A DNA stretch of 54,343 bases, taken from NCBI GenBank assembly GCA_947465495.1, contig CANIAS010000014.1:1-54343 (forward strand), in the 5' to 3' direction. How positions within the stretch are numbered: the first letter of the stretch is position 1; each line of letters starts with the position of its first letter. This document shows, piece by piece, positions 679-6,478 of the stretch. A program made the position numbers and the translations under genes. The notes under the pieces are model-generated. The model made no database searches and was not told the origin of the DNA. It worked only from the letters and a program-made list of their open reading frames with translations. This stretch comes from Candidatus Pollutiaquabacter sp. Lineage in GTDB: Bacteria > Bacteroidota > Bacteroidia > AKYH767-A > 2013-40CM-41-45.

Positions 679-2172
679 TTATTTTCGGTAGCTGACAAAA
701 TAGGGAGCTCGTAGAACTTCCTGATTGTACTGAAACCGGTCGCCGTTTGGTAAACTCTTGTAATAGAGTTGCAACGTGCGTTCATCAATGCACGTGATGT
801 AACCATTTCTGCCACCACAATCGGAAACGTGGTGTGGGGCAGGACCGTTGGTGTCCAGATTTAAATTCGCTACAAATACTAGCTCTTTGTCGTCGTCCAC
901 CGCAATACCATGCGGCTGATAACCAGTATAGAGGCTGGTAACAATGGTATTGTTGTCAGTATTGATTACATACACGGATCCTTTTCGAGAGACGTCTTGC
1001 ACGTCCTCTGTGCACGTGATATAAACATACGGATGGTCAGAGGATGCAGCGAACTCTTGAGGTTTAGTGCCAATGGTTAACGTGGCTAACAAACTGTCGT
1101 TTGAAGATTGGAAAATGCGTACTTGATTGCTAGTTTGACAACTTACGTAATACTTACTGCCGTCTCCTGAAAGGATCATCTCATGCGGATCATATCGTGA
1201 GGCGGTGGTTTTTACTTCGCCAGGTTGCAAAATGATGGCATCGTAGGAGTAAAATGGATCCATTAAATCAATTTTATTGATGAAGTTGCCCAACTGCGAA
1301 GTGAGGTAGAGCCAACGTCCATCGGCAGTGATGAATCCGCCGTGAGGATAATCAATGCTGAATCGCGTGATTTCTGTCATGGAGTTCAAATCGATCACTA
1401 CTGTGGTGCCTGCATTCGTGCCGTTCACAAATCCTTTGCTACCATCTGGAGTGATCATGATCGTATTCCAGTCTGCAGCACCGATGGTAAGTGTACCTAC
1501 CAGACTATCATCACTAGTTCTGAACTTCTGAACAATATTTCCAGAGTAAAATACAACATACCAGAATTGCCCATCAGGTGACACACGCACCATATGCGGA
1601 GCTTCAATAAGAGTCGGGTCTGTTCCTACTGAGATGTATCGCATGATGTTTTGTGAAGTGCCATCCAAAACGGCCACTTGATCACAGCCCTGCATGCATA
1701 CATACAGCTTTTTTCTGGCAGGATCATCTGCGTAGTTAATCCTGCCATTTTTGTCAGGAGCTCCTTGTAGAATCCAATCGTAGAGTGTCTGGTATTCAGA
1801 ACGGGAAAGGGCAGGGGCATTTAAGGGCATCGTAGGTAGCAACACCTGGCCAAGGGTGGTGTCGGTATTCACAAAGTATAACAGAAAGCTGTAGGCGGTC
1901 GAGTAGGGAATAACGCTGCTTCCATTACGACCGCCTCGGAATAAGGCGTCCCAGCTACTTAGGTCAATCCCGCCAGCATTAGAATAGCTAATGTCATTGT
2001 GACATCCTGGGGTAGCACATTTGCCTGTGATAATGGCACCCACTTCTTCTGGATAACCACTTTCATCCGGTACCTCAAGTTTATGATCAACACACGATAT
2101 CAGCGATATCATTAGCAGGCAGGTGCTAATCTTACTTGCACATAATTTGGAGAAAATACTAGATTTTTTCAT
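679..2172 (-). CDS. Lipoprotein with cytochrome-c-like domain fused to a YVTN beta-propeller
   Basis: 497 residues. The signal peptide ends in a lipobox (LISC, Cys27), so this is a lipoprotein of the cell envelope. Residues 35-140 resemble a cytochrome-c domain: CATPGCH (Cys52, Cys57, His58) is a heme-attachment-like motif with a four-residue spacer instead of two, followed by LPTMPLNAP with Met115 as candidate sixth ligand and a WILQGAP helix end typical of envelope cytochromes. Residues 150-497 are a seven-bladed YncE/YVTN-type propeller with repeats such as VSPDGQFWYV, TPDGSKGFV and SGDGSKYYV, and a histidine-rich end (PAPHHV, then CGGRNGY). The start ATG overlaps the stop of the upstream lipoprotein by 4 bases, so the two are translationally coupled. 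Heme binding is inferred; substrate and partner are unknown. Confidence 0.8.
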   Translation of the reverse strand: MKKSSIFSKLCASKISTCLLMISLISCVDHKLEVPDESGYPEEVGAIITGKCATPGCHNDISYSNAGGIDLSSWDALFRGGRNGSSVIPYSTAYSFLLYFVNTDTTLGQVLLPTMPLNAPALSRSEYQTLYDWILQGAPDKNGRINYADDPARKKLYVCMQGCDQVAVLDGTSQNIMRYISVGTDPTLIEAPHMVRVSPDGQFWYVVFYSGNIVQKFRTSDDSLVGTLTIGAADWNTIMITPDGSKGFVNGTNAGTTVVIDLNSMTEITRFSIDYPHGGFITADGRWLYLTSQLGNFINKIDLMDPFYSYDAIILQPGEVKTTASRYDPHEMILSGDGSKYYVSCQTSNQVRIFQSSNDSLLATLTIGTKPQEFAASSDHPYVYITCTEDVQDVSRKGSVYVINTDNNTIVTSLYTGYQPHGIAVDDDKELVFVANLNLDTNGPAPHHVSDCGGRNGYITCIDERTLQLYYKSLPNGDRFQYNQEVLRAPYFVSYRK

Positions 2173-2579
2173 TCGCTGACGTAAACGATAATGTCCAATT
2201 GATGATTGGTTAGTGCTTTTTCCGCCACAACAATCGGCGTGTAACCAACGACAGTGTCACCCCAAATTAGATCATAGCCTTTGGCATAGAGGTAGTAATT
2301 GCCTGGATGCAATTGGTCAAATACAACGTTCCCGTCATTGTCTGCTTTAGAATGAATTTCGTAATTACTGGTGTCGTACCCGGGAAAGCTAGTGGCATTG
2401 GGTTTTAAATATGCATCCAGATAGGGAACTCCCCAGGTGTGATGGAGTAGGCGGGCATTTAATCGAATATCTCCGGTAACGGCAATGTCATTCGCAGAAT
2501 CTTTGTTGCAACCGGTTAGCCACGATAAGCAAGTCACGGCTACGGGAATCAGGATGTAACATCGAAGTGTGTGCTTCAT
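2169..2579 (-). CDS. Small lipoprotein with HHT motif (paralogue of the next gene upstream)
   Basis: 136 residues. An N-terminal signal ends in a lipobox (LTGC, Cys24) and the rest is a small beta-rich domain. It shares a spaced pattern with the 148-residue protein at 2639-3085: a strand ending in LLHHTWGVP, a KPNATSFPGYD segment, and PGNYYLYAKGYD followed by VVGYTP. This looks like a carboxypeptidase-regulatory/CnaB-like beta-sandwich, inferred from the pattern of short strands and the GxYYLYAxGxD turn. It is coupled to the propeller gene by a 4-base overlap. A TAACTTTC sequence (one mismatch to a -7 box) lies 4 bases before the ATG, and a terminator separates it from the gene upstream. No named family is recognised. 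The paired histidines could bind metal, but that is speculation. Confidence 0.75.
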   Translation of the reverse strand: MKHTLRCYILIPVAVTCLSWLTGCNKDSANDIAVTGDIRLNARLLHHTWGVPYLDAYLKPNATSFPGYDTSNYEIHSKADNDGNVVFDQLHPGNYYLYAKGYDLIWGDTVVGYTPIVVAEKALTNHQLDIIVYVSE

Positions 2580-2605
2580 ACTAGAAAGTTACGAATAAAT
2601 CCAAT

Positions 2606-2629
2606 AAAAAAGCCCCTGTCCGGGGCTTT
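2606..2629 (-). terminator. Intrinsic terminator after the 148-residue lipoprotein gene
   Basis: The hairpin AAAGCCCC / GGGGCTTT (arms 2609-2616 and 2622-2629, 5-base loop) runs on the minus strand into a run of Ts (complement of A2606-2611). It lies 10 bases past the stop of the 2639-3055 gene. It should separate that gene from the lipoprotein-propeller pair downstream, which therefore needs its own promoter or readthrough. Confidence 0.85.
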
Positions 2630-2638
2630 CGTTTAATG

Positions 2639-3055
2639 TTATTCTGTGACAGGTATCTTGACTATTACTTCTCCTGAACTCTGATCGGTATTGTAAGGTA
2701 TGCCCCCTCGAACCACTTGGTTAATCGAGGTGTCCCATCCGCTGGCGTATAAGTAATATTGTCCGCATTGTAGTCCTTCAATATGCACATGATCCTCTGG
2801 ATATTCGCCAATAAGCATCATGTCATAACCACTAGGTGCAGAAGCCCAGTCTGTGGCATTGAATTTCACCCATACCGTATCAGGGCGGAGGGAGTCATTC
2901 GGAATATTAATGGTGTGATGTTCCAGTTTAGCGACAATTGTCAATGATCCGCCCGATCCTGCATTGCATTTTGGATCGTCTTTGCATGAAAACGTGGTAA
3001 GTGCGGCGGCCAAGACTATTACGCCCAAACCGACGAGGAAGAGTCTTTCTTTCAT
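2639..3055 (-). CDS. Small lipoprotein with HHT motif
   Basis: 138 residues from the chosen ATG at 3055. An upstream ATG at 3085 would add ten residues, but the lipoprotein signal (MKERLFLVGLGV to TTFSC) is cleaner from 3055. The mature part is Cys- and Gly-rich at first (DDPKCNAGSGG), then a beta-domain with KLEHHTINIP, VKFNATDW and CGQYYLYASGWD followed by VVRGGIP. These spaced motifs match the lipoprotein at 2169-2579, so the two are diverged paralogues. It lies 91 bases downstream of the TonB receptor on the same strand and is followed by a strong terminator, so receptor and lipoprotein may share a transcript. Function is unknown; a surface-exposed accessory of the receptor is the most natural guess from position. 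Confidence 0.75.
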   Translation of the reverse strand: MKERLFLVGLGVIVLAAALTTFSCKDDPKCNAGSGGSLTIVAKLEHHTINIPNDSLRPDTVWVKFNATDWASAPSGYDMMLIGEYPEDHVHIEGLQCGQYYLYASGWDTSINQVVRGGIPYNTDQSSGEVIVKIPVTE

Positions 3056-3146
3056 ATTCTTAAGGATTAGATGCCTATTAAACATCGTTTGAATCTAAAG
3101 GTTTCATATTTCTTTTATTTTAAGATTTATTTGGGCTAATTTAAGA

Positions 3147-5441
3147 TCAACGGTTGTTTCCTTTCATGGAAAGTGGAAGTTCGATTCCAAGGGAAATGTT
3201 CCTGCCAGTTCCGTTCACACCTATGTCTTTGTATCGGTTTAAATGATTGAAGTAGGTTTTGTTGGTTAGGTTACTACCGTTCACGAAAAAGTTCAGCGGA
3301 AGTCCTTGTAGTAGTATCGTTCCTCCAAATCCGGCATTCATCAATACATATCCAGCTGTAATGGTTTCGAATTGGTCAATCCTGTCTTGTGCGAATATAT
3401 TTTCAATAGATACTTTGAAATAAACTCCGCGTAGATGTTTCGATGAGTGCCCCGATGCATCATAACGCAATTCGTGAAATGTTTTTACAGGTGGAATGAA
3501 TGGCAAAGGTCGGTCAAGCTCGCGATTATTTGCATAAACTAACGATGCGGAGTTTTCAAAATGCAAGTCATCGATCAAATGTATGTCTAAGGTAAACTCG
3601 CCTCCCCATAATAAAGCATCTGACTGGGTATACCGGTACACAGGATACCAGACTCCATCAACTTCTTTAGTTTCGTTGTTTGTCTGTTCGTAATAGATGT
3701 AATTTGCAATGTAGTTGTAAAATAAATCGGTGGTAAAGGAGATTAATTTTCGATTGAAAATAAGTCCTGCATCCAATTCATGTGCGGTTTCTGGATTTAG
3801 ATCCAAGGAGCCAATCTCGTACCGGAAAGTTCCTTCGTGAACGCCGTTTGCAGAAAGTTCAGGTATTGAGGGCGATCGGAAGGCTCTTCCCATATTTGCT
3901 TTGATTGAAACATCTTCGGTGAACGCATAGGTGAATCCAGCCGACCCAGTCAAGGCACGAAATTTTCTTGCTGTATCTTGAAAAAGAATCACTCCATTTT
4001 TTTGCAAACCTACTATGGTTAGTGAACGCTGATCGTATCGAATTCCGAAGTTGAAGGTGCTCTTTTCAAAATTATATTTTGTAGTTGCAAAAACACCCGC
4101 ATCCATGGATTGGTATTCCGGAATCAGGTATTCCAGTCCGAGGTTTTCGTTTGTTTGTGACGTCCCTGATAGTCCGATGGCGTCTTCACGATGATCCCGA
4201 ACAATTGGAAGGTACTTCAAATCGTAACTAAACGTATTCAGTCGCATTGATATACCTGGTTCAATATACGTCTCTTCGAATTCCTTACGGTTGTTTTGTT
4301 GCCAACCGACATTGAATCGGAGTTGCCGTCCTTTCAATAGGAAATTATTTGCCGTACTTATTTTTAGATGTTCAATGTGCTGTTCGGGTAACACCAGCTT
4401 ACGCGTGTTAAGCTGGTCTTCCGTAACGATGTTGCCATTGGAATCTACGAACTGGCCAGTGGTACTATCTCGCTCGCCCTCGGTGAGTCCGATAATCGAT
4501 GACCATCGACTGAAATGCATGTGAGAATAACCCCATTTCTTATTAAATCCTACCAGGCCTTCTTGCGCCTGCTCGCTAAATCCGGAGTTGTAAACTGTTT
4601 CTACTGGAGTTCTAAAGGAAGCAGCGTTTTTATAGCTGCCTCTTGCTCGCCAAACGAAACCGGATTGGTTTCCTTCCAGCAACAAAGAGTTCCCGGTTAA
4701 TCGGTTGTTAAAAGAATATTGTGAGTTGAACAAGCCACGGATGGTGCCCGTCGCAGCAGGAATAGGTTCCAGGATATTGATAACACCGCCGAGCGCGTCT
4801 GAGCCATATTGCAACGATGCTGGTCCCTTTAATACTTCGATATGGTCGGCAGAGAATTGGTCAATCTCGAGTCCGTGCTCATCTCCCCATTGTTGTCCTT
4901 CCTGTCGGATGCCTTGGTTGATGACCACAACTCGGTTATAGCTCAATCCGCGTATCACTGGTTTGGCAATGGCATTCCCAGTAGTGATTGCCGCTACACC
5001 GGGTAGTGTCGCAATCGCTTCTGTTAGATTGCCTGGGGCTAGTGAAGTTATTTGCAAACGATCCAATGGTGTGACCGACGTGCTCATTCGTGCATTCTCT
5101 CCTGTAAATGCAGAACCCGTCACTACCACTTCGTTTTTTTCAATGATGGATGGTTCTAATCGGAAATCAACGTTTGCTTCCGAAGGGAAATCAATCATTT
5201 TTGATTGACTGGAGTATCCTAACAAGCGAACATTGGTCAAGAAACGACCTTTGGGTAATTCGCTAAACTGGTAATGTCCTTTAGTATCACTTACCGTAAC
5301 TTGTTTTAGGTCAGTGATGATAATGTTTACACCGGGTAAAGGTTCACCGGAGGTTTGATCGTAGATGGTCCCTTGCAATGACTGTCCATGAAGTATAGAT
5401 GTACAGTGAAGAACGACCATCATGAAAAATATATTTTTCAT
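3147..5441 (-). CDS. TonB-dependent outer membrane receptor
   Basis: 764 residues. The signal peptide MKNIFFMMVVLHCTSILHGQ is followed by a CarboxypepD_reg-like domain (about 21-105, with GEPLPGVNIII and SDTKGHYQF), a plug domain (about 107-230, with PGVAAITTGNAIAKPVIRGL, VVVINQGIRQEGQQWG and the IEVLKGPASLQYGSDALGG box) and a 22-strand barrel to the end. It imports a scarce substrate across the outer membrane using TonB/ExbBD energy. The plug segment with GQQWGDEHG resembles CirA/HmuR/ZnuD-like metal and metal-complex receptors. Together with the Cys/His-rich small protein upstream and the CX4CH propeller downstream, this suggests a metal, heme or metallophore substrate. No SusD partner is present, so a glycan substrate is unlikely. 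Substrate not determined. Confidence 0.92.
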   Translation of the reverse strand: MKNIFFMMVVLHCTSILHGQSLQGTIYDQTSGEPLPGVNIIITDLKQVTVSDTKGHYQFSELPKGRFLTNVRLLGYSSQSKMIDFPSEANVDFRLEPSIIEKNEVVVTGSAFTGENARMSTSVTPLDRLQITSLAPGNLTEAIATLPGVAAITTGNAIAKPVIRGLSYNRVVVINQGIRQEGQQWGDEHGLEIDQFSADHIEVLKGPASLQYGSDALGGVINILEPIPAATGTIRGLFNSQYSFNNRLTGNSLLLEGNQSGFVWRARGSYKNAASFRTPVETVYNSGFSEQAQEGLVGFNKKWGYSHMHFSRWSSIIGLTEGERDSTTGQFVDSNGNIVTEDQLNTRKLVLPEQHIEHLKISTANNFLLKGRQLRFNVGWQQNNRKEFEETYIEPGISMRLNTFSYDLKYLPIVRDHREDAIGLSGTSQTNENLGLEYLIPEYQSMDAGVFATTKYNFEKSTFNFGIRYDQRSLTIVGLQKNGVILFQDTARKFRALTGSAGFTYAFTEDVSIKANMGRAFRSPSIPELSANGVHEGTFRYEIGSLDLNPETAHELDAGLIFNRKLISFTTDLFYNYIANYIYYEQTNNETKEVDGVWYPVYRYTQSDALLWGGEFTLDIHLIDDLHFENSASLVYANNRELDRPLPFIPPVKTFHELRYDASGHSSKHLRGVYFKVSIENIFAQDRIDQFETITAGYVLMNAGFGGTILLQGLPLNFFVNGSNLTNKTYFNHLNRYKDIGVNGTGRNISLGIELPLSMKGNNR

Positions 5442-5483
5442 GGTCGATTTATTGAATCAGAAAAAATCAGAATAGGTATTAGC

Positions 5484-5825
5484 TCAACACAAGGGCAGCA
5501 AGCAGGGAGGTCCTCGTAGTGTCGAAATAGTTAAACAGGAAAATTCAATCGAGCAGATTTCAAGAACGGCTGGTCGGAATATGGAATGTTTGGAAAATGA
5601 AGGATGGTAAACGATCAGCGCGAATAGCACAGGACTTTCCATCTGAAGTAATTCGCAGTGCTTATGGGCTTTGCTAATTCCAGTTACATCCTGACACTCA
5701 ATGTGAGTGTCGCAGTCGTCGCGATGATCCAGTAATTCGTGGAGCAACGGACCTGGAACTAGGTAGAACGAGAACAGGAGCGGCAGAAGCCCGTTCAAAA
5801 AATACCGCAGCGTTAACCTGTTCAT
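5484..5825 (-). CDS. Small Cys/His-rich exported protein, DUF2946-like
   Basis: 113 residues. An N-terminal hydrophobic segment (about 7-27, NGLLPLLFSFYLVPGPLL) is followed by a cluster of potential metal ligands (HELLDHRDDCDTH, ECQD, KAHKHCELLQ), a second hydrophobic stretch, and the C-terminal LRGPP motif before CLLPLC. An N-terminal membrane or signal segment, a His/Cys centre and a terminal R(A/G)PP motif recall DUF2946-type proteins, which often sit beside metal-related TonB receptors. Here it lies 42 bases upstream of such a receptor on the same strand. The promoter -7 box is 7 bases before the ATG, so the message is probably leaderless. Function is not established; metal binding or sensing near the receptor is inferred. 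Confidence 0.65.
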   Translation of the reverse strand: MNRLTLRYFLNGLLPLLFSFYLVPGPLLHELLDHRDDCDTHIECQDVTGISKAHKHCELLQMESPVLFALIVYHPSFSKHSIFRPAVLEICSIEFSCLTISTLRGPPCLLPLC

Positions 5826-5832
5826 GATTCCT

Positions 5833-5863
5833 CAAAGTTAGGTTCTTTTAGGCTTAATTCAAC
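5833..5863 (-). promoter_or_regulatory. Promoter of the Cys/His-rich protein-TonB receptor transcript
   Basis: On the minus strand a TTG (complement of 5860-5862), 19 bases, then TAACTTTG (complement of 5833-5840) gives a full Bacteroidota-type promoter. Transcription should start at about 5826-5827, right at the ATG of 5825, so the mRNA would be leaderless. Its -33 region abuts the -7 box of the divergent rluE-like gene, so the two promoters may interfere. Confidence 0.65.
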
Positions 5864-5875: not shown

Positions 5876-6478
5876 ATGTCTTCCCGATACCGTCATTTTT
5901 TGATTTATAAGCCATACGGCATGCTGTCCCAATTTTCAAAAGAAGGCGAGCACAAAACGTTGGCAGATCTTGATTTTGCCTTTCCAAAAGATGCCTATCC
6001 GCTGGGTCGACTGGATGCGGATAGTGAAGGGATGCTGCTCTTAACGAACGATGCAACGATTAATGCGCGACTACTGGATCCAGAGAAAGGCCATGAGCGG
6101 GAATATTTAATCCAAGTTGACGGAGAAGTTACGGATGAGGCCTTAGCACAATTAAGCCGTGGAGTGGAACTTAGCATTGATGGCAAGAAATTCAATACTC
6201 GCCCCGCACGTGCTTTACGTGCGGAACCTCCCACCGAATTGCCGGAACGAAATCCTCCGGTTCGATTTCGTAAAGCGATTCCGACGTCGTGGATTTCACT
6301 TTCTCTCACGGAAGGAAAGAATCGTCAAGTCCGTCGAATGACCGCTGCCGTCGGTTTCCCTACCTTGCGCCTGCTTCGTGTTAGGATTGGAGCGCTTTTA
6401 CTTACCGGATGGACACCTGGTTATGTCCGTGAACTTTCAGCTGATGACATTCGGCTGACATTGCAACGGAAAAAGTAG
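5876..6478 (+). CDS. rluE: Ribosomal large-subunit pseudouridine synthase, RluE-like
   Basis: 200 residues, cytoplasmic. It isomerises a uridine of 23S rRNA to pseudouridine. The RsuA/RluB/E/F family signature YPLGRLDADSEGMLLLTND is at 41-59, with the catalytic aspartate in GRLD (Asp47). The N-terminal FLIYKPYGMLSQF motif and the late EGKNRQVRRMTAAVGFPTLR motif are also present. There is no N-terminal S4 domain and the length is about 200, as in RluE rather than RluB or RluF. It sits alone between divergent promoters. The exact target uridine cannot be read from sequence. Confidence 0.88.
   Translation: MSSRYRHFLIYKPYGMLSQFSKEGEHKTLADLDFAFPKDAYPLGRLDADSEGMLLLTNDATINARLLDPEKGHEREYLIQVDGEVTDEALAQLSRGVELSIDGKKFNTRPARALRAEPPTELPERNPPVRFRKAIPTSWISLSLTEGKNRQVRRMTAAVGFPTLRLLRVRIGALLLTGWTPGYVRELSADDIRLTLQRKK

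Follow-up and report, generated by a model that had tools for sequence, protein, structure and literature searches.

Introduction

CruR (DUF2946) of Bordetella pertussis heads the bp2923-bfrG-bp2921 operon and is a copper-responsive upstream ORF, in which a CXXC motif senses copper and a RAPP motif arrests the ribosome, both motifs being required (PMC9426467). The distance from C90 to R139 of CruR is 49, with 45 residues between the motifs, a spacing that is conserved within one or two, and OprC-type receptor and MbnPH operons were listed alongside it (PMC9426467). The B. pertussis leader and receptor genes are separated by a gap of 162 nt, and a Rho route was shown there (PMC9426467). CutF-like proteins have also been surveyed: 40% of the 5,334 (normalised) are in Bacteroidota, TonB genes are frequent neighbours and the gaps are mostly short (PMC9973294). 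For the receptor ZnuD, the zinc site has been named as H100, E340 and H499 (PMC4557270). A literature search for TonB-linked copper acquisition in Bacteroidetes returned nothing relevant. To our knowledge, outer-membrane copper uptake in Bacteroidota is poorly described.

Here, we analysed a locus of five ORFs, A to E, in a 54,343-nt stretch of DNA from Candidatus Pollutiaquabacter sp., hereafter the window. Based on homology and gene context, we propose, with a probability of about 0.6, that the locus holds two adjoining transition-metal uptake modules, copper being the most likely metal: one has a receptor under leader control, the other lipoproteins and a cytochrome-propeller protein.

Organization of the locus

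The initial annotation had claimed five consecutive minus-strand genes, and the ORFs A to E, all on the minus strand, lie where it placed them. They exceed chance ORFs: 43 of the 61 related genomes contain homologues of the C-type lipoprotein, and E occurs in 38 of the 42 genomes of the order (33/33 of the good ones). The locus is flanked by a divergent pseudouridine-synthase-like gene (5876-6478) and by the end of a convergent malate dehydrogenase gene (1-657).

Immediately 5′ of A, we found a Bacteroidota-type promoter, TTG-N19-TAACTTTG (5833..5862, minus strand), which matches TTGN19TANNTTTG exactly; this pattern occurs five times in the window against 0.82 expected, and a TANNTTTG box stands at the equivalent position 5′ of the A genes in the relatives L032 and L033. 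The promoter ends 7 bases ahead of the start codon of A, and the 5′ UTR would thus be very short. Further downstream, the intergenic gap between A and B is 42 nt. A hairpin followed by TTTATT between C and D (2609..2629, minus strand, listed on the plus strand) is GC-rich and palindromic with a T-rich flank, and is a probable terminator. Because of this terminator-like hairpin and a 4-nt overlap between D and E, A to E would form at least two transcription units, probably A-B-C and D-E. In the relatives L033 and L034, the two lipoprotein genes overlap each other instead.

Gene A is likely a regulatory leader

Gene A (5484..5825, minus strand) encodes 113 aa and, as noted initially, is rich in Cys and His, with a signal-like N-terminus and an LRGPP-containing C-terminal end (...TLRGPPCLLPLC). 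Two motifs give it a layout like that of CruR and CutF. The first is HKHC (5655..5666, minus strand), presumed to sense the metal, whose H.HC pattern is shared by the nine leaders of its subtype and whose Cys is invariant in A3. The second is RGPP (5505..5516, minus strand), an R(A/G)PP-type motif 6 residues from the C-terminal end and presumed to arrest the ribosome, in which the R and the PP are invariant in leaders. Homologues of A stand immediately 5′ of TonB receptor genes across Bacteroidota, with leader-to-receptor gaps of 21-200 nt in leaders other than A, and their C-terminal ends consist of R(A/G)PP and 2-6 further residues.

We collected 31 distinct Bacteroidota leaders directly 5′ of receptors whose plug carries QQxGxxHG, and the distance from the Cys to the Arg of R(A/G)PP was 47-49 residues in all 31. 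It was exactly 47 in the HxHC subtype (9/9, A included) and 47-49 in both the 15 CxxC leaders and the 7 others. For the CxxC leaders of a phylum-wide search (n=18), the standard deviation of this distance was 0.85, versus 9.6 for the pre-Cys length. The sequence between the sensor motif and R(A/G)PP is not conserved, while its length is fixed. The LRGPP of A is part of a motif at a fixed distance from the Cys motif, a detail that had been missed.

The initial annotation took A for a functional exported metal protein, which is probably wrong in view of the CruR/CutF-type leader layout. If A were a small metal-binding protein at the cell surface, with the spacing fixed by its fold, its signal-like N-terminus and its Cys and His residues would be explained, but what is conserved from sensor to RGPP is the length and not the sequence. 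Moreover, the motif lies at the extreme C-terminus, the gene is directly 5′ of the receptor in the pairs found, and CruR can regulate without its signal peptide (PMC9426467); we therefore regard this explanation as improbable. The features above point with good likelihood to A being a regulatory leader peptide of the ribosome-arrest type.

A resembles CruR in being a small exported ORF directly 5′ of a TonB receptor, with an R(A/G)PP at the C-terminus some 47-49 residues after a Cys, and differs from it in carrying HxHC for CXXC, in its 42-nt rather than 162-nt gap, and in its Bacteroidota host. The CXXC sensor motif is absent from A, where HKHCELL is found, and present in other leaders of the set. 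Pfam DUF2946 matched neither A nor any other protein of the window's own genome, and a CxxC relative of A scored under the cut-off (E=0.011, 16.9 of 23.7 bits); the model was above cut-off in 2 of 148 genomes and misses the Bacteroidota leaders. With CutF-like proteins, A has in common a small ORF, a Cys/His motif and a PP near the C-terminus, whereas CutF itself has CXXXC and precedes a multicopper oxidase. Since the DUF2946 test fails and the motif is HxHC, not CXXC, we limit the claim to a CruR/CutF-like way of working, without DUF2946 membership: A probably works like these leaders by analogy, and the metal that it reads may differ. Given the gap of 42 nt against 162, the Rho route of B. 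pertussis may not apply to A-B.

A 13-pair hairpin over the start codon of B (5414-5446, minus strand; -10.8 kcal/mol, regional z -2.2) was considered as a CutF-like stem-loop and rejected, as relatives lack the hairpin and the accessibility does not stand out from that of other genes.

Two further types of small gene were observed. A third leader subtype (L159, L160, L163, L166, L177) has a single Cys in H.H..[DE].DC, placed exactly 48 residues ahead of R(A/G)PP; loss of the second Cys is thus recurrent among leaders and may mark other metals. Separately, a second small gene (LCENK..CxGkC..F[HQ]PP) stands at the head of MbnP or barrel clusters in L035, L036, L039, L091, L092, L117, L138 and others. 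In 21 of 23 copies, which include some duplicates, the CXXXC-to-PP distance is 64-67 and 2-7 residues separate the PP from the end. On these grounds, it may be another leader-peptide class.

The receptor B resembles ZnuD

Gene B (3147..5441, minus strand) encodes a ZnuD-like TonB-dependent receptor of 764 aa with carboxypeptidase-regulatory (CarbopepD_reg_2), plug and barrel domains in Pfam, and no SusD gene adjoins it, in agreement with the earlier description of a TonB receptor lacking a SusD partner. Its closest solved structure is ZnuD (4rdr, E=2.4e-19). The EH of the plug motif GDEHG (4872..4886, minus strand) is aligned with D99-H100 of ZnuD, and the His of the barrel motif ANGVHEG (3831..3851, minus strand) with H499 (chain numbering minus 14). 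The zinc-site His100 and His499 are thus both matched by His in B, and E340 is outside the alignment. An acid-acid-His plug motif, QQ[WF]G[DE][ED]HG, is kept in most receptors 3′ of such leaders. B differs from ZnuD in its CarboxypepD_reg domain, its leader and its score with the ZnuD model NF038289, which is under cut-off (109.5 of 950 bits). The model for OprC-type copper receptors, TIGR01778, likewise gave 89.5 of 472 bits, under cut-off.

All NCBIfam scores of B were far under the cut-offs, and the models of heme and hemoglobin receptors came top. Heme receptors carry His at similar places. For both reasons, heme is kept as a possible ligand, with B as a heme receptor and E handling heme or electrons from heme, and a FRAP-like stretch in B would fit the same explanation. 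Against it, every such score lies far below its threshold, the acid-acid-His plug motif follows the Asp-His of ZnuD, and heme is not a known signal for this class of leaders. Heme uptake is consequently quite improbable, and a metal ion is the favoured ligand of B as judged from the sequence.

C and D are HH-lipoproteins

Genes C (2639..3085, minus strand) and D (2169..2579, minus strand) encode HH-lipoproteins 1 and 2. C has the lipobox FSC (2984-2992), HHT (2912-2920) and DHVHI (2780-2794), and the HHT motif is common to D. A search of the own genome with C retrieved D at E=4.7e-5, which bears out the relationship between the two lipoproteins proposed initially and makes them paralogues. The HH pair is invariant across 27 aligned C/D-type members and present in 29 of 29 lipoproteins adjoining E. 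Neither C nor D matched a family in Pfam or NCBIfam. The predicted structure of C is a confident beta sandwich (pLDDT 90.6), with which a search of the PDB gave no significant match. Following the lipid Cys of C is CKDD, which we take to resemble the surface-export signal of Bacteroidota.

In other Bacteroidota (L208, L199, L200, L216, L218 and L092:2854-3429), small lipoproteins of different kinds come after the leader-receptor pair: DUF4625 proteins, of which some contain HDHDH runs, or members of an unnamed family. It looks as though every receptor there had a lipoprotein partner of its own.

E combines a c-type cytochrome domain with a propeller

Gene E (679..2172, minus strand) was described initially as a lipoprotein joining a CX4CH cytochrome-like domain to a YVTN propeller, and the motifs, profiles and structure model agree with this, placing a c-type cytochrome domain at the N-terminus and a YVTN-type propeller at the C-terminus. 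The heme-attachment motif CATPGCH (residues 52-58; 1999..2019, minus strand) and the Met115 of TMP (1825..1833, minus strand), the probable distal heme ligand, are each present in 100% of 91 homologues, which suits a c-type cytochrome whose heme is ligated by His and Met. YVTN-type propeller models matched E under their family cut-offs, the generic repeat excepted.

The propeller region (829..1602, minus strand) carries six His, H193, H277, H330, H421, H447 and H448, which are 96-100% conserved in the same homologues. In the structure model (pLDDT 82.9), the four single His each start an inner strand, in four different blades, and the loop 443-449 holding H447-H448 is of low confidence. The inner-strand starts of a propeller face its central channel. 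At these positions, the alignments examined show mainly residues other than His in ordinary YVTN propellers. Foldseek matches of E include NirN and cd1 NirS, which were among the top, as well as N2O reductase and thiocyanate dehydrogenase, both of them propellers that bind copper through His. As modelled, the positions of the six His resemble those of copper propellers, and in a profile comparison with N2O reductase (hhalign) the PHG and GPxH stretches align, at a non-significant 7.6%. Because this comparison is non-significant, a metal centre in the propeller can be put forward only tentatively from sequence and model.

E shares the cytochrome-plus-propeller fold with NirN/cd1, and His at inner-strand starts with N2O reductase and thiocyanate dehydrogenase; it differs in being a lipoprotein with a single putative heme c of CX4CH type and without a CuA domain or a significant profile match. 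Membership of E in L-NosZ/NosZ was rejected, since the L-NosZ model gave 32.7 of 700 bits, hhalign with NosZ gave the above value and the genome contains no NosZ. The place of NirN and cd1 NirS among the top structural matches, and their similar layout, would also suit a cd1/NirN-like enzyme with heme d1, or a denitrification enzyme, outside metal uptake. This is very improbable, as the genome has no NirJ above cut-off, the occurrence of E in every good genome of the order is too general for heme d1, and the same L-NosZ and NosZ results speak against it.

Gene context in relatives links the lipoprotein-E pair to copper genes

We surveyed 80 named E loci, 79 of them titled Bacteroidota, and counted as metal-uptake genes MbnP, MbnH-like, barrel c10, cysP, HMA, receptor and leader genes within 8 kb and on the same strand as E; the cluster label 'FGGAP' was excluded because it was polluted by the T9SS tail. 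Such genes were present in 22 of the 38 E loci with a C/D-type lipoprotein versus 1 of 42 without (Fisher p 2e-8, in a context that is phylogenetically clustered). On the E tree, the metal-gene label is clustered with 13 changes, and independent pairs are too few for a test.

The order in L116, which adjoins the same malate dehydrogenase as the window, is leader, receptor, MbnP, MbnH-like, barrel, lipoprotein, E and DCC1-like. MbnP was assigned by Pfam, and 19 of 27 MbnP have WxW, the modified motif of MbnP. These copper pairs (CorA/CorB, MopE type) cluster with the lipoprotein-E pair in related bacteria, and two MbnP-MauG pairs, both with WxW, occur in the own genome outside the window cluster (G000:C2:33718-34269 and G000:C7:29672-30139). 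By contrast, no MbnP/MbnH gene is within the window's own cluster, and E is not a diheme peroxidase.

Whether the five genes make one coherent set, as was claimed initially, depends on the lineage. Leader plus receptor and lipoprotein plus E are each conserved as a pair, and the pairs adjoin in the window, in genus g8 and in the distant lineages L099, L100 and L116. However, they are two modules that lie apart in many other genomes, where orthologous leader-receptor pairs stand alone, and L031, a relative within the genus, carries lipoprotein-E but no A-B at this locus.

Two other arrangements were seen. In another family (L054, L056, L061, L066), this malate-dehydrogenase locus has two FG-GAP proteins with T9SS sorting tails in place of leader and receptor, directly 5′ of lipoprotein-E. 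Adjoining metal clusters in L091, L092, L125, L138 and L146, we found a two-gene unit: one gene encodes an exported protein with an HMA domain, the other a conserved, barrel-like protein of about 315-340 aa that no Pfam family matches.

The most serious competitor to copper is zinc, with a ZnuD-like receptor, an HxHC leader that reads zinc, and the E module as a separate neighbour, perhaps respiratory or copper-related. Among solved structures, ZnuD comes closest to B and shares two zinc-site His with it, A is without CXXC, the A-B pairs of the order are apart from copper genes, and DUF2946 genes in Caulobacter also adjoin zinc/heavy-metal genes (PMC4176598). Yet CXXC relatives of the leader-receptor pair share a run with MbnP/MbnH (L116), and CutF-like proteins with Cys motifs mostly adjoin copper genes (PMC9973294). 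This zinc scenario is unlikely as a whole; as to the metal itself, we hold copper to be probable and zinc a minority possibility.

Discussion

In the mechanism that we propose, module 1 would consist of A and B, probably with C. The HxHC of A would read the metal during chain synthesis, the RGPP end would be the ribosome-arrest site, and translation of A would set the expression of B, a putative ZnuD-like outer-membrane metal-ion receptor. Module 2 would consist of D and E, with C. Here, the small HH-lipoproteins may bind metal at the cell surface, and E, membrane-anchored, with its predicted single-heme c-type cytochrome and His-lined propeller, may bind the metal or alter its redox state. 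We infer the redox role of E, the ribosome arrest, the identity of the metal, the surface location and the cooperation of both modules.

The surface metal capture suggested in the initial annotation is supported by the ZnuD-like receptor, the CruR/CutF-type leader and the linkage of lipoprotein-E to MbnP/MbnH-type copper genes in relatives. E might also reduce or release the metal, as suggested there. Its proposed ligand, a redox-active metal, heme or metallophore, stands as far as a metal is concerned, heme or metallophore being less likely. Against two modules for copper count the missing CXXC and DUF2946 match of A, the lack of a family-level score for B and the absence of MbnP/MbnH from the window cluster.

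The leader and the receptor each represent a variant of something already known. Among the families and papers covered by a limited search, the HH-lipoproteins and E seem not to have been described. In a bolder and rather doubtful interpretation, E would be the first member of a surface metalloenzyme family not described so far, in which a c-type cytochrome is fused to a propeller with a multi-His copper centre and has the HH-lipoproteins as partners; its task would be to oxidise copper, reduce it or strip it for a receptor whose production depends on an HxHC metal sensor in a nascent chain.

If the two-module reading is true, three things open to joint testing would be connected: a metal switch in a leader peptide that obeys a strict spacing of 47 residues, a receptor subfamily identifiable from its plug motif, and a near-universal cytochrome-propeller lipoprotein, encoded by every good genome of the order (33/33), that accompanies MbnP/MbnH-type copper genes.
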